Part shown: one piece after another, positions 164 to 21,118 of the stretch
Layout: each line of letters starts with the position of its first letter
Position numbering within the stretch: the stretch's first letter is position 1
Virus record (IMG/VR): IMGVR_UViG_3300044837_000053
Location: 1-24,883 of that record
Source: a virus
Strand: one strand, 5' to 3'
Length of the DNA stretch: 24,883 bases
Program-made: the position numbers and the translations under genes
Notes under the pieces: model-generated
What the model was told of the DNA's origin: nothing
Seen by the model: only the letters and a program-made list of their open reading frames with translations
The model's database searches: none

Positions 164-682
164 CTACCTAGCTAGGTGCACCTTCGTGGTCACGCCGATC
201 ACGGTCAGCGAGAAGTTGATCGTGTTGTTCTCGTACGTGAACGTCTTGGTCAGGTCCTCGGACGCGAGCATCGACTCGTCCATCGCGTGGAGGTCCCCTT
301 CCGACTCGACGGTGAACTTGGCGCCGTGGTTGGCTGGGACGGGGAACGTTCCCTTCCAGTAGAGCGCACTGGTGTCGCCGTTGGCCCACTGGATCTCGAT
401 CCCGTCGTCGGTGACGGTCGCGAGCATGGTTGAAGACTCGAGCGATGCGGCCCACTTGCCGTTCAGGCTCGAGGTGCTGGGAGTAATCTCGACGGCTGGA
501 ACCGCGGCGGTCATGGTAGATGATGCGGGCTTGCTTGAGTTGTGACTCTCTTTGCTGCCGAGCAGGACGAGAGTCACGCAGATGCCCGCGATGGCCAGGA
601 ACGTTCCGAGCGGGATGATCCACTTGAGGTGGTTGGTCTTCTTGATCTTCTTGATCTCTTCGTTGGGAACTGTCCAGAACAT
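164..682 (-). CDS. Membrane-anchored extracytoplasmic protein, 172 aa, function unknown
   Basis: The ATG at 682 follows a good AAAGGAG site. Residues 1-18 are polar and Lys-rich, residues about 19-41 form one membrane segment (KWIIPLGTFLAIAGICVTLV), then comes a Ser/Pro/Thr-rich linker (about 42-72) and a beta-rich domain (about 73-172) starting near LNGKWAASLESSTM. The topology suggests N-terminus inside and the domain outside the membrane. The domain resembles small lipocalin-like secreted proteins I recall from actinobacterial phages and bacteria, but I cannot name a Pfam family. Codon use is GC-rich at third positions, like the capsid and lysin genes, which suggests strong expression. The position after the holin and a terminator-like hairpin allow a role at the host envelope such as superinfection exclusion; that is inference only. 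Confidence 0.75.
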   Translation of the reverse strand: MFWTVPNEEIKKIKKTNHLKWIIPLGTFLAIAGICVTLVLLGSKESHNSSKPASSTMTAAVPAVEITPSTSSLNGKWAASLESSTMLATVTDDGIEIQWANGDTSALYWKGTFPVPANHGAKFTVESEGDLHAMDESMLASEDLTKTFTYENNTINFSLTVIGVTTKVHLAR

Positions 683-703: not shown

Positions 704-731
704 ACTAAAAGACCGTGTTAGGGTCTTTAGT
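704..731 (-). terminator. Terminator-like hairpin between the 40-aa and 172-aa genes
   Basis: On the minus strand AAAGACC pairs with GGTCTTT around a seven-base loop, and the stem is extended by ACT/AGT beyond a one-base bulge. A T-rich run (TTTTAGTTTTT) follows directly. This is the form of an intrinsic terminator. It lies between the stop of the 40-aa gene (751) and the ribosome binding site of the 172-aa gene (about 690), so it should lower or gate expression of the latter. The stem is short, so the strength is uncertain. Confidence 0.5.
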
Positions 732-750: not shown

Positions 751-873
751 TCAGTCTTTGATGAACTTCTTCTCGATGACGAGGGCAGCAGCACAGACCG
801 CGAGCGGTACGATGAATCGTACAGTCACGACGAGCGCGAGCTTCTTGACATCGGGGTTGATGTTCTTCAGCAT
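751..873 (-). CDS. 40-aa single-pass membrane protein
   Basis: The product is MLKNINPDVKKLALVVTVRF followed by a hydrophobic segment and a KKFIKD tail: one membrane helix at about residues 12-34 with basic residues at both ends. I chose ATG 873 because AAAGGAATT lies just upstream; a longer frame to 942 would read through the conserved promoter-like element. The gene sits as an isolated unit between that element (881-924) and a terminator-like hairpin (704-731). No family is recognised. Such small one-helix proteins next to holins are often holin- or antiholin-like, but nothing in the sequence proves it. Confidence 0.6.
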   Translation of the reverse strand: MLKNINPDVKKLALVVTVRFIVPLAVCAAALVIEKKFIKD

Positions 874-880
874 GATAATT

Positions 881-924
881 CCTTTCATAGGGGTCTCATT
901 ATACCCCGTGTTTTTTTCGCGACC
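881..924 (-). promoter_or_regulatory. Repeated promoter/operator element, copy 1
   Basis: Read on the minus strand: GGTCGCG, 14 nt, TATAATGAGACCCC, then TATGAAAGG which supplies the SD of the 40-aa gene. The TATAAT (898-903) is a perfect -10 hexamer. No TTGACA-like -35 is present at 17 nt; instead GGTCGCG is conserved at fixed distance in all three copies. The outer GGTC and GACC form a short inverted repeat. Start codon is 24 nt after TATAAT. Confidence 0.65.
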
Positions 925-954
925 TCCTGACGATTTCTTCACCCGGGATTTTTT

Positions 955-994
955 TCGAAAAGGAAAACCTAAATCCCTCGTAAGGGACTAGGTT
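955..994 (-). terminator. Intrinsic terminator after the 70-aa gene
   Basis: On the minus strand AACCTA pairs with TAGGTT and TCCCT with AGGGA (966-994), separated by a small internal loop and capped by a four-base loop. A T-rich run (TTTTCCTTTT) follows. It begins eight bases after the stop of the 70-aa gene and lies just upstream of promoter-like element copy 1, so it separates the two units. Confidence 0.65.
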
Positions 995-1001
995 GTGAGA
1001 T

Positions 1002-1214
1002 CTAGCGGGATATGGCTTTTGCTCCGATGCGCAGCAAGTCACAGGCCGTCTTGACGACGAGCACGGACGTGACAACTCCAGCGATCTCCCAGGCGAAGTC
1101 AGTCGCGATGTCGGCATAGGCCTGAAGCGCGGAAATGGATTCGGTGGGATCGGTGGAGACGCCGTCGGTGTTGTTCTTGACGAACTTGACTTGGACTGCA
1201 CGATTTCTGAACAT
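1002..1214 (-). CDS. 70-aa small protein with C-terminal membrane segment
   Basis: ATG 1214 follows AAAGGACCGCC. The first half is polar (MFRNRAVQVKFVKNNTDGVS), the second half is amphipathic to hydrophobic (about residues 38-60, FAWEIAGVVTSVLVVKTACD) and the end is basic (IGAKAISR). It looks like a small membrane-associated protein. I recall similar short ORFs at the end of the lysis region in actinobacteriophages, all without known function. The gene is a stand-alone unit: element copy 2 lies directly upstream and a clear terminator hairpin directly downstream, so it can be transcribed apart from the late operon. Confidence 0.65.
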   Translation of the reverse strand: MFRNRAVQVKFVKNNTDGVSTDPTESISALQAYADIATDFAWEIAGVVTSVLVVKTACDLLRIGAKAISR

Positions 1215-1220
1215 GGCGGT

Positions 1221-1264
1221 CCTTTCATAGGGGTCTCATTATAAGCCCCGTTTTCTTCGCGACC
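1221..1264 (-). promoter_or_regulatory. Repeated promoter/operator element, copy 2
   Basis: Minus-strand order: GGTCGCG (1258-1264), 14 nt, TATAATGAGACCCC (TATAAT at 1238-1243), TATGAAAGG. It is nearly identical to copy 1 outside the 14-nt spacer and has the same total length. It is placed immediately before the ATG of the 70-aa gene, 23 nt between TATAAT and start codon. Confidence 0.65.
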
Positions 1265-1284
1265 GCCAAAAATTATAGGATTGG

Positions 1285-1316
1285 CAAAACATAGAAGGCG
1301 TGTATCTCTACACGCC
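1285..1316 (-). terminator. Stable hairpin after the 96-aa gene, likely terminator
   Basis: GGCGTGTA and TACACGCC (1297-1316) form a perfect eight-base-pair stem. On the minus strand the loop is GAGA, a GNRA tetraloop, and TTCTATGTTTT follows. It starts 33 nt after the stop of the 96-aa gene and lies about 33 nt upstream of promoter-like element copy 2. The T-run is imperfect, so it could also be a transcript-end stabiliser. Confidence 0.6.
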
Positions 1317-1348
1317 CTCCACGTCTTTAGCCTCTTCGGGTCACATAT

Positions 1349-1639
1349 TCACTTCAGCTTCATCACGAAACTGAGCGCTTTCGAGGTCACAACGTTCACT
1401 TTCTCGTAATGAAGGATCGCCAGGATTCCGAATAGATTTGCGGCCACGGTCAAGGCAACTTCAGGACTGATGAATGGCTGTGGAGTGTCTTGCTCCTTCA
1501 GCTTGTACAGTCTTTCGAGTTTCTTGAGCATGTCTGCATACTCTTCGGTTTCTGAGGTGAATCCTCCCATATCGATGAAAATGTCTTCTATGGCCTTATC
1601 AAGACGCTCAAGTGTCGCGGGGGTCTGCTTCTTGAACAT
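1349..1639 (-). CDS. 96-aa protein with C-terminal membrane segment
   Basis: ATG 1639 is chosen because AAAGGACCTAT lies just before it; the longer in-frame start at 1663 lies inside promoter-like element copy 3. The N-terminal half is charged and probably helical (DIFIDMGGFTSETEEYADML, then KKLERLYKLKE), and a hydrophobic stretch at about residues 63-80 (SPEVALTVAANLFGILAIL) is followed by KVNVVTSKALSFVMKLK. This layout, including the NVVTSKALSFV-type end, is common in small phage proteins of Gram-positive hosts that I recall near lysis or structural genes; no function is known to me. It is the first of three small genes that each carry the repeated element. Confidence 0.65.
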   Translation of the reverse strand: MFKKQTPATLERLDKAIEDIFIDMGGFTSETEEYADMLKKLERLYKLKEQDTPQPFISPEVALTVAANLFGILAILHYEKVNVVTSKALSFVMKLK

Positions 1640-1645
1640 ATAGGT

Positions 1646-1688
1646 CCTTTCTAGGGGTCTCATTATACAGCGTGTTATACACGCGACC
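1646..1688 (-). promoter_or_regulatory. Repeated promoter/operator element, copy 3
   Basis: GGTCGCG (1682-1688), 14 nt, TATAATGAGACCCC (TATAAT at 1662-1667), TAGAAAGG. The 14-nt spacer differs from copies 1 and 2 but keeps its length. Here a perfect GCGTG-TATAA-CACGC inverted repeat (1670-1684) overlaps the spacer and the GGTCGCG block. It separates the holin gene from the 96-aa gene. Confidence 0.65.
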
Positions 1689-18696: not shown

Positions 18697-18996
18697 CTAC
18701 TTCATGGTTGTAATCTTGTGAACACCTTGTCGGTTTGGCTTGATGAACTTCGTCGGCTCTGGAGTGGACGACAAACCCGGCGTGTTGGAACGGGGGGCCG
18801 TCTTACGCTCGAGTGACGCAAGAATCTTATCTCCATGCTCCAGAAGCACAGCAGCCGCGACAGTAGCGCCAACAGCGAAGAGACCCTTGGCCAGCTCTTT
18901 TTTAGAGCTTTTAGGTGAAGAAATGGCTGTAGTTTTTCGTTGGCCCCATTTCATGCCTTTGACACCGTGGTGGGCCATCACCTCATCGAATGTCAC
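18697..18996 (-). CDS. 99-aa protein with HHGVKGMKWG motif, copy B
   Basis: GTG 18996 overlaps the terminase stop as GTGA, with GGAGG seven bases upstream. Residues 9-18 are HHGVKGMKWG, directly after MTFDEVMA. A membrane-like helix follows (about 35-55, LAKGLFAVGATVAAAVLLEH), then a Pro/Ser/Lys-rich tail. The H-G-[VI]-K-G-M-[KR]-W-G motif is known at the ends of MuF/capsid-related proteins and in small proteins of many phages of Gram-positive bacteria; its function is not known to me. It lies between large terminase and portal, so a head-associated or DNA-injection role is plausible. A second gene with the same motif lies on the other side of the terminase. Confidence 0.75.
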   Translation of the reverse strand: MTFDEVMAHHGVKGMKWGQRKTTAISSPKSSKKELAKGLFAVGATVAAAVLLEHGDKILASLERKTAPRSNTPGLSSTPEPTKFIKPNRQGVHKITTMK

Positions 18997-20735
18997 TCGA
19001 AAGCCTCCTTGTGGGCCTTGTACGCGATATAGGCATCCATCAAGGCTGCCACGTTATCGATTTTCTCCTCTTGACGCTTCTTTAGGAGTTTACGGTTTCC
19101 GTTCGTGTCCTCGAGCGTGATCGCATTCCCCATAGCGAAAGACATCAAAGCTTGATCGAAGAACAACATTCGCTCTTCACTGAGAATCTTGATCTCCCCA
19201 AGAGGGACAGACTCAGTTCTCGCACCCTGAATGACTTTTTCGATGCCAAAAGGACCGTTCTCCGCTTCCCAACGGGCGACGAATTCCTTGGCGTTGTATG
19301 GGTCGAAGCCTAGCGAACGAACATCGTAACTTTTACTCTCAATGAAGGCGTCAAGATCCTCGTACACCTCCATCATGTCAAGGATGGTTCCTTCGAGAAC
19401 GTGCAGACTTCCTTCGTTGATGAATTCGTCGTACTTAGCCCGCATGGCGCCAGGCAACTTCATCAATGTCAACGAAGTTATATAGCTTCGGGTCTTTACA
19501 CCGAACCCTTTTCGCAATGGGAACAAGAAAGTGAACGCACAGAAGTCGTCACCCTGCGAAAGGTCGGCACCAAGTGAACAAGGAAGCTCCCAGAACTCCC
19601 GAACACGGTGAGGAATCGTTTCTTCGTAGGTGAAGTAGTACGTATAACCTTCCATCGGAATACCGAAACGCTTAGCTAGGATGTCGTTTCGTGAGGCCGG
19701 CGCCTTCTCGGCCCGTTCGACATCCAATTGGTACGTTTCGTATGTGACGGTGAGGCCGATGTTCGGATTCGCCTTAGGCCACATCGCAGGGTTGGCAACT
19801 TCTTCCAACTCATCCAGCTTATAGTGCCAGATCGAAACATGGGGCGCAAGATAGTCCCCTCTCAGAATGGTGGCGAGTTCCATTTTGATAGTATCGCCAG
19901 AACCGTTCCGAACTGTTCCCTCTGAACTGATGGCGATGATGAGCCAGTCGTCCAACTTTGAAGCGCCTTGTTCAACTGCTCCGACAACATCTTCTCGAAG
20001 ATCCCCAGAAAGCCATTCGTCGATTGTAGAGACTTTTGGACGAAGACCTTGGAGCTTAGGGATGGCCATTGGTCGAACTTCAACCAACGAACCGGTGAGA
20101 AAGTTCTCAACGCCCTTCTTGGTTGGCGAAAGTTTCTGACGAAGGAATCTGGACCCTGTCGTGTTCTGCAAAGAACCCTCGGTAAGGAACTTGAAGAGAG
20201 GTCCTCTACTTCTGGTGATGGAAGTCCGGATAGGCGACATGACTTCGTCGGCCTGCTTCATCGTCGGCGCTGTGGTGATCTGGTGTGTTGTCGAAGTGTC
20301 GACATTCAAGAAGTAGTTTTGGATACACGACGCGTACATCGACTTAGCAGCACCTCGAGCGATGATGAGGTACTGCTTCGTGGTCAACCTCTTCTTGATA
20401 GTCTTCTTGACGTAACGACCACCATGATTCTTCGGTGACGGAACATAAACACTTCGTTCTTGGAAGTGGTACCAGCCGAAAATCTGCTCAGCCCAGAGCT
20501 TGAAGGATGGAAGTAGATGGAGGTCACTTCCATCCGTCAGCGTCAGTTCGTTTTCGCAGTATAGGACGAATCCGTCGACAGCCTTGTCGTCGTAATAGAT
20601 GCTCGGATTGGCTATCAGCGCATCAATGCGATTCATCTCCATAGCAATTTCCCGATTTACAGGGATCTCACCACGAAGCACCGCGTCACGAAACTGACCG
20701 TAATAGATCGGTGTCGCTTTGTTTGATAGCGCCAC
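18993..20735 (-). CDS. terL: Terminase large subunit
   Basis: 580 aa, start GTG 20735 with GGAGG eight bases upstream. ATPase domain: adenine/Q-like region 'LLPSFKLWAEQIFGWYHFQE', Walker A-like ARGAAKS at 126-132, Walker B TIDEW at about 237-241, coupling motif 'IIAISSEG' near 266-273. Nuclease domain: SLGADLSQGDD with Asp 391, GFDPYNAKE with Asp 478, and KIDNVAALMDAY with Asp 560 as likely metal ligands. Length and motif order match the HK97/phiC31-like terminase family. It packages DNA through the portal and cuts at packaging start and end. The candidate small terminase and HNH genes are about 3.1 kb upstream, not adjacent. Confidence 0.95.
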   Translation of the reverse strand: MALSNKATPIYYGQFRDAVLRGEIPVNREIAMEMNRIDALIANPSIYYDDKAVDGFVLYCENELTLTDGSDLHLLPSFKLWAEQIFGWYHFQERSVYVPSPKNHGGRYVKKTIKKRLTTKQYLIIARGAAKSMYASCIQNYFLNVDTSTTHQITTAPTMKQADEVMSPIRTSITRSRGPLFKFLTEGSLQNTTGSRFLRQKLSPTKKGVENFLTGSLVEVRPMAIPKLQGLRPKVSTIDEWLSGDLREDVVGAVEQGASKLDDWLIIAISSEGTVRNGSGDTIKMELATILRGDYLAPHVSIWHYKLDELEEVANPAMWPKANPNIGLTVTYETYQLDVERAEKAPASRNDILAKRFGIPMEGYTYYFTYEETIPHRVREFWELPCSLGADLSQGDDFCAFTFLFPLRKGFGVKTRSYITSLTLMKLPGAMRAKYDEFINEGSLHVLEGTILDMMEVYEDLDAFIESKSYDVRSLGFDPYNAKEFVARWEAENGPFGIEKVIQGARTESVPLGEIKILSEERMLFFDQALMSFAMGNAITLEDTNGNRKLLKKRQEEKIDNVAALMDAYIAYKAHKEAFE

Positions 20736-20751
20736 TTACCAACCCTCCTTT

Positions 20752-21108
20752 CTATGCCGTTGATTTCTTCTTGAGTAGACCGCTGACTTGCTGACCCGCA
20801 GCATCGTTGGCGACTCGAGTGATTTGGTTCTTTCCCACACCGACAAGCAGGTCAAGAACGAACTTCTTCGCCTGTGAGCCTGGCTGAAGTGCGGAGAACT
20901 GCCGCTCCAAGTTCACTCGTGTGACGTATGCCTGAAGCTCGTTGTTGCTGAGAGCTTTTCGACCGCCGGCCTTGGCTTTTCCCTTGATCACCTGGACGTT
21001 GGTGTGATCCTGTGAGGGCGGGGCAGACATCGAAGGCATACCACCTCGAACGCCCCACTTCATCCCCTTGATCCCGTGGTGAGCAAGGATTTCGTCGAGT
21101 GTTTTCAT
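20752..21108 (-). CDS. 118-aa protein with HHGIKGMKWG motif, copy A
   Basis: ATG 21108 is chosen because TAAGGAGGT lies just before it and because the product then starts MKTLDEILAHHGIKGMKWGV, aligned with copy B (MTFDEVMAHHGVKGMKWGQ). The longer frame to 21198 overlaps the fibre gene and lacks an SD. After the motif comes a Pro/Ser-rich stretch, a basic part (VIKGKAKAGGRKALSNNELQ), then 'YVTRVNLERQFSALQPGSQA', a helical hydrophobic segment (FVLDLLVGVGKNQI) and a basic end. Proteins with this motif are associated with capsid genes in many phages. It precedes the large terminase. Confidence 0.75.
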   Translation of the reverse strand: MKTLDEILAHHGIKGMKWGVRGGMPSMSAPPSQDHTNVQVIKGKAKAGGRKALSNNELQAYVTRVNLERQFSALQPGSQAKKFVLDLLVGVGKNQITRVANDAAGQQVSGLLKKKSTA

Positions 21109-21118
21109 CAATACCTCC

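Follow-up and report, generated by a model that had tools for sequence, protein, structure and literature searches.

Repeated TATAAT elements in front of small phage genes are probable promoters of a phage-encoded single-chain RNA polymerase

The three repeated elements analysed here are probably cognate promoters of a single-chain, two-barrel RNA polymerase encoded by the phage itself (PHROG 4291) and not of the host RNA polymerase carrying its main sigma factor. The mechanism suggested by sequence comparison would be as follows. The PHROG 4291 polymerase, encoded at the right end of the genome, would recognise elements whose boxes lie, relative to the predicted start, at -25 to -21 (TCGCR), -14 to -12 (ACA) and -6 to -1 (TATAAT), and the RNA would begin at the G following TATAAT (GAGA...). 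Each promoter would drive a short unit, usually with its own terminator, in most cases a single small gene behind a leader of about 22-34 nt; in some units, a tRNA or a structured small RNA would take the place of the gene. The original prediction had seen in these elements a phage-specific promoter regulon that lets small genes be expressed apart from the late operon, and the family of related motifs found in other phages supports that view.

The window, that is, the whole stretch of DNA analysed, is the entire 24,883-base IMG/VR record. A pattern search of its 24,883 nt found exact matches to GGTCGCG-N14-TATAATGAGACC at 924-892, 1264-1232 and 1688-1656, all on the minus strand, which also carries the genes around them, and no other match in the window. 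Since three exact copies compare with 0.01 expected by shuffling, and no shuffle contained three, the repetition first noticed by reading the sequence is real. Scored with a PWM derived from relatives, the three copies reach 44.8-49.1 bits and the next best site in the window is negative. In copy 1 (892..924), TCGCG occupies 922-918, ACA 911-909 and TATAAT 903-898, giving a predicted +1 G at 897 and a predicted initial sequence of GAGACC from 897 on the minus strand. Copy 2 (1232..1264) carries TCGCG at 1262-1258, ACG at 1251-1249 and TATAAT at 1243-1238, with the predicted +1 G at 1237, and copy 3 (1656..1688) carries TCGCG at 1686-1682, ACA at 1675-1673 and TATAAT at 1667-1662, with the predicted +1 G at 1661. 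As had been described, each copy stands in front of one small minus-strand ORF: 40 aa after copy 1 (751..873, ATG at 873), 70 aa after copy 2 (1002..1214, ATG at 1214) and 96 aa after copy 3 (1349..1639, ATG at 1639), with leaders of 24, 23 and 22 nt, respectively, from the predicted +1. Neither the 40-aa nor the 70-aa ORF had a PHROG match, and the 96-aa ORF matches PHROG 5818, which has no known function. The proposal that all three encode membrane proteins is plausible, each having one hydrophobic stretch by eye. Terminator-like hairpins were found by a terminator scan after cassette 1 (708..728, minus strand) and cassette 2 (972..989, minus strand); after cassette 3, a candidate hairpin (GGCGTGTA...TACACGCC, then TTCTATGTTTT; 1297..1317, minus strand) was seen by eye and was not flagged by the scan. 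In agreement with the earlier remark that the elements have no -35, the window promoter scan returned no TTGACA-type promoter overlapping the TATAAT of any of them. After cassette 1 lies a 172-aa ORF (164-682, minus strand) that has no element before it, no PHROG match and, by eye, a putative N-terminal hydrophobic stretch.

The motif is widespread among relatives, with more than 120 stretches of IMG/VR carrying TATAATGAGACCCCTA. Alignment of 321 unique related copies corrected it to TCGCR-N6-ACA-N5-TATAAT-GAGA. In full, the conserved blocks of these copies are TCGC(A/G), six mostly A/T bases, ACA, five bases, TATAAT, GAGACC, CC, TA, the SD and the start codon, of which GAGACC belonged to the search string behind the 321 copies. 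The element is conserved in relatives far beyond neutral similarity. In the sublineage of the window, GAGACCCCTA downstream is also part of the motif. The 14-nt spacer had been described as variable in sequence and fixed in length; its length is indeed kept, but it contains N6-ACA-N5, with A, C and A conserved in 93, 99 and 89% of the 321 copies (copy 2 of the window has ACG). The first two positions of GGTCGCG are G at frequencies of 0.30 and 0.27 in the same alignment. Because this GG is not conserved, the GGTC/GACC inverted repeat, once suggested to be an operator palindrome, is not a feature of the family. No conserved TGn (extended -10) was found ahead of TATAAT in the 321 copies. The part after TATAAT varies by sublineage (AGAACC in Curtobacterium, GACACC in Arthrobacter AU and GAAATA in a saliva phage), and TCGCR-N6-ACA-N5-TATARTR is still recognisable across these other sublineages; Lactococcus phage 1706 carries 11 forward copies of a diverged motif, against 0.03 expected. 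The motif is directional, as all copies in nine other reference genomes lie on the coding strand and none of these genomes has a reverse-strand match. An SD and a start codon follow 557 of 590 sites (~94%), the motif being 13-53 nt ahead of the start codon, and the remaining copies (about 6-12%) head small structured RNA or tRNA units. A TTTT is found no more than 22 nt ahead of 257 of 625 sites, whereas control positions give 49, an excess that is expected if many promoters directly follow the terminator of the preceding unit.

Where does the RNA begin? In many apparently non-coding units, GAGAxx right after TATAAT pairs with xxTCTC just before the T-run, as in GAGAACCTAG...CTAGGTTCTC-ATTTTT. 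When sites were chosen on the sequence up to TATAAT only, 8-bp stems starting from the first base after TATAAT were present in 2 of 400 coding units but in 18 of 80 non-coding ones, where shuffling the partners left 2.1 (maximum 4). Stems beginning three bases upstream showed no excess in the same 80 non-coding units. Among 22 anchored stems, the first, second and third bases after TATAAT are paired in 19, 18 and 20 cases, respectively, but the last T of TATAAT in only 10 of the 22. Single tRNA and ncRNA units fold alike, as seen for the Poco6 tRNA and for the degenerate tRNA-like units of the saliva phage and of Lactococcus 1706. Sigma-A transcripts start about 7 nt after TATAAT, and an RNA beginning there would lack the paired bases; we therefore infer that +1 is the G after TATAAT, which in the window would correspond to 897, 1237 and 1661. 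The pairing boundary does not fall at about 5-9 nt after the -10, where the start of a host promoter is expected, and by putting +1 directly after TATAAT it argues that this hexamer is not the host sigma-70 -10 box, with a start 6-8 nt downstream, for which it had been taken.

The candidate reader of the motif is a right-end gene product, exemplified by Tanis gp92, a protein of 904 aa that belongs to PHROG 4291, is annotated as RNA-dependent RNA polymerase and has HTH domains near both ends. The catalytic DxDGD of two-barrel RNA polymerases is represented by GADFDGD, which is invariant in an 18-row alignment, and 46 of 47 ORFs from a DxDGD search have an LSGADFDGD-type motif. The predicted structure, a moderate-confidence model (pLDDT 75.7, pTM 0.52), has Arabidopsis RDR2 as its best PDB fold match (E 0.004, probability 1.00), which is consistent with the RDR/beta'-like fold of a two-barrel polymerase, and the next matches are many bacterial beta' subunits, weak and with E above 0.1. 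A sequence-profile search of the PDB with the polymerase returned HTH fragments and helical repeats only, and the link of the PHROG 4291 protein to PDB polymerases comes from the fold comparison only. The polymerase protein of Lactococcus 1706 is ~38% identical, and in Poco6 the 1706 homologue is described by a GenBank note as a structural protein; the polymerase gene is placed between the replication and structural modules. In three MAG phages, a motif copy precedes the VRR-Nuc-Cas4-polymerase genes (G067:C153 7247-7346, G070:C16 24073-24099 and G057:C21 4276-4302), so that the polymerase may drive its own gene. At the N-terminus of the polymerase, HYGxxxxSGRYPWGSG (P0001 residues about 10-26) is near-invariant and loosely resembles HHGIKGMKWGVR, which starts the window head-region ORFs 20752-21118 and 18697-18996, both on the minus strand. 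The two might possibly be a common virion-protein signal.

The minus-strand gene order of the window, in which some gene names were assigned from position only, is small ORF, HNH endonuclease, endolysin, terminase, portal, protease, tail genes, tape measure, minor tail proteins, holin and promoter cassettes, and it is that of the left part of Streptomyces phage Scap1. The terminase large subunit (18993..20735, minus strand), used for lineage placement, is 83-85% identical to those of ClubPenguin and RosaAsantewaa (Streptomyces) and of Gordonia cluster DJ phages. ClubPenguin, the nearest relative, has 8 forward and 0 reverse motif copies, beginning directly after the holin, and at its right end encodes a 906-aa protein with GADFDGD. 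The window represents the left 25 kb of such a phage, and the contig stops before the region corresponding to the polymerase gene; from its placement by terminase and synteny, the window's own phage may carry a PHROG 4291 polymerase.

Across phages, the motif is restricted to one lineage, which comprises Lactococcus 1706-like phages, phages of Gordonia, Streptomyces, Arthrobacter and Rhodococcus, and gut phages. By tblastn, the PHROG 4291 polymerase is present in 250 phage records. Counted as group totals, not record by record, motif and polymerase records are 55/55 for Gordonia, 54/54 for Streptomyces, 12/12 for Siphovirus, 4/4 for Rhodococcus and 2/2 for Caudovirus. Polymerase records outnumber strict-motif records for Arthrobacter, Lactococcus, Curtobacterium, Microbacterium and Faecalibacterium, and diverged copies were found in phages of the first four of these groups (one or two genomes per group). 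Arthrobacter Mudcat has the polymerase but 3 motif copies, and some other polymerase-bearing phages have few. Among 50 motif-bearing IMG/VR records, 35 encode PHROG 4291 and the other 15 are mostly short or short of the right end; three negatives of about 40 kb or more (G033, G045 and G047) apparently do not reach the right end, and members in which it is present have an intact polymerase gene. The motif is thus limited to polymerase-encoding phages, the negatives being explained by short or partial contigs. When the core pattern was run against 84,980 genomes of bacteria and archaea, 28 stretches matched, against ~2 by chance as estimated for even base composition. PHROG 4291 was found in 15 of 25 motif-picked bacterial genomes and in 1 of 195 background genomes, all of one class, that of one of the 25 (Fisher p about 8e-16). 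In 13 motif-picked genomes, motif and polymerase gene share contig and strand; a similar pattern had 2 chance matches in the 195 background genomes.

Nine right-arm genes are common to 10 of 10 reference phages, among them those for the polymerase, a primase-polymerase, an SSAP, a helicase, a VRR-Nuc and a Cas4-like exonuclease, and the seven MAG phages that were checked, some on partial contigs, have all or most of the nine. The eight other core genes, three of which have no known function, accompany the motif to the same extent as the polymerase gene does. Since the nine are common across one lineage, co-occurrence alone cannot pick the polymerase over these three. The PHROG 4291 polymerase, and not another common phage protein, is suggested as the reader of the motif because it is a polymerase, because HTH domains lie near its ends, because the start position is not that of a sigma promoter, and because AR9, phiKZ and P23-45 offer precedents.

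An unlikely alternative takes the elements for promoters of host sigma-A that have a perfect -10, lack a -35 and are activated when a phage protein binds TCGCR/ACA, following the logic of T4 MotA middle promoters. The perfect TATAAT in all three copies, the lack of a -35 and the GAGA purine stretch, a favourable discriminator, would all suit such promoters; any of the three common proteins without known function could be the activator, and published authors have read the motif as sigma-70 (PMC9671010, PMC10868162). However, the start set by the pairing boundary is too close to TATAAT, the boxes recur in phages of both Actinobacteria and Firmicutes, and among the proteins common to all there is a complete polymerase but no member of a recognised sigma or activator family. 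It is very improbable that the elements are repressor operators or stoperator-like sites overlapping promoters. They are repeated, directional and intergenic, as are cluster A stoperators, and GGTC...GACC is present in the three window copies, but the palindrome is not conserved in the 321 copies, the copies are placed where units begin and lead into tRNAs and ncRNAs, and no repressor gene is common to the lineage. A role in a lysogen, which had also been considered, is not borne out: no integrase or repressor is annotated in the actinophage stretches examined, and both are described as absent from the published cluster DJ phages. Hardly tenable, finally, is a translation-level start-associated sequence in the mRNA leader, like the SAS of cluster K. 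The near-fixed distance to the SD and start codon would fit it, but non-coding or tRNA units follow about 6-12% of copies, and the inferred RNA start is downstream of the conserved boxes. Cluster K SAS are repeated before small genes, have a proposed role in translation or other processes and appear to differ in sequence; the comparison first made with them holds as an analogy of layout and goes no further. An N4-like DNA hairpin promoter was also considered and rejected, as copy 3 has GCGTGT-ATA-ACACGC and copies 1 and 2 do not.

What was already known of promoters of this kind? The motif alone appears to be known from Gordonia cluster DJ, and its pairing with a polymerase, its start site and its breadth appear to be new. 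In the cluster DJ phages Vardy and Conley, a 43-50 bp intergenic motif was read as a sigma-70 -10 (PMC9671010, PMC10868162), and repeats were reported in Pherobrine and Burley (PMC9753669). The sequence is the same, with TATAAT, upstream of ATG and in a small-gene array after the tail genes, and cluster DJ phages are among the best motif matches; these reports, however, concern one cluster and do not include a polymerase, a start site, ncRNA units or a wider family. Small membrane gene arrays in clusters AM and AU and in Poco6 have been noted without promoters. In the literature searched, we found neither the TATAATGAGACC string nor a paper linking these phages to such a polymerase. In other phages, the AR9 nvRNAP promoter is AACA-N6-T(A/G) and that of the phiKZ nvRNAP is TATG, with G as the start (PMC5312081); for the P23-45 RNAP, motifs have been described that follow the presence of the polymerase in relatives (PMC10770324). 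These systems share with the one proposed here a phage-encoded two-barrel polymerase and a conserved T before a purine start and, in AR9, an ACA-type box upstream, but their polymerases belong to other families (multi-subunit or tape-measure-fused) and their sequences and spacings are different. YonO of SPbeta is a single chain that combines two double-psi barrels with a conserved triad of aspartates, and its promoter was stated to be unknown (PMC5467207). It resembles PHROG 4291 in being a single-chain phage polymerase, and differs in that it transcribes late genes as one operon; no clear motif copy was found near SPbeta yonK. T7-type promoters are compact phage promoters in which TATA immediately precedes +1 and the transcript opens with a GGGAGA-like sequence, and the elements would resemble them in these respects, T7 polymerase itself having an unrelated single-subunit fold.

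Hundreds of sequenced phages have a PHROG 4291 gene, whose product is in most cases annotated no further than helix-turn-helix or hypothetical protein. If the elements are indeed read by this protein, they would be the first promoter for a little-studied polymerase family, and a presumed host sigma-70 promoter would become the cognate promoter of a compact single-chain polymerase. Exact RNA starts would then be predicted in easily grown actinophages, unannotated small RNAs would be exposed, and a new orthogonal polymerase-promoter pair for high-GC hosts could be obtained. Our guess is that the cassettes are expressed early, possibly by virion-carried polymerase. We put forward more tentatively a family-wide, sigma-independent system, in which virion-carried PHROG 4291 would be injected with the DNA and would start at the base after TATAAT from arrays of one-gene and one-ncRNA cassettes conserved in phages of both Actinobacteria and Firmicutes; its products would include uncharacterised structured RNAs.

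Structured small RNAs follow promoter copies without an ORF at L140:17830-17946 and L141:15053-15190 and at loci L017, L081, L110, L023 and L042. Several of them have a common GAGACrCGAAyGyGTAGG...CCTACC core, and the L023 and L042 units contain internal tandem hairpin repeats. No Rfam family other than one tRNA was found for loci L023, L042, L058, L140 and L141. At L143:13070 (Lactococcus phage 1706) and L148:17871 (saliva phage D_HF5_2C), the copies run straight into degenerate tRNA-like genes. The one at L148 had no ARAGORN call, and in the matching setting of Poco6 a tRNA-Ala is called.
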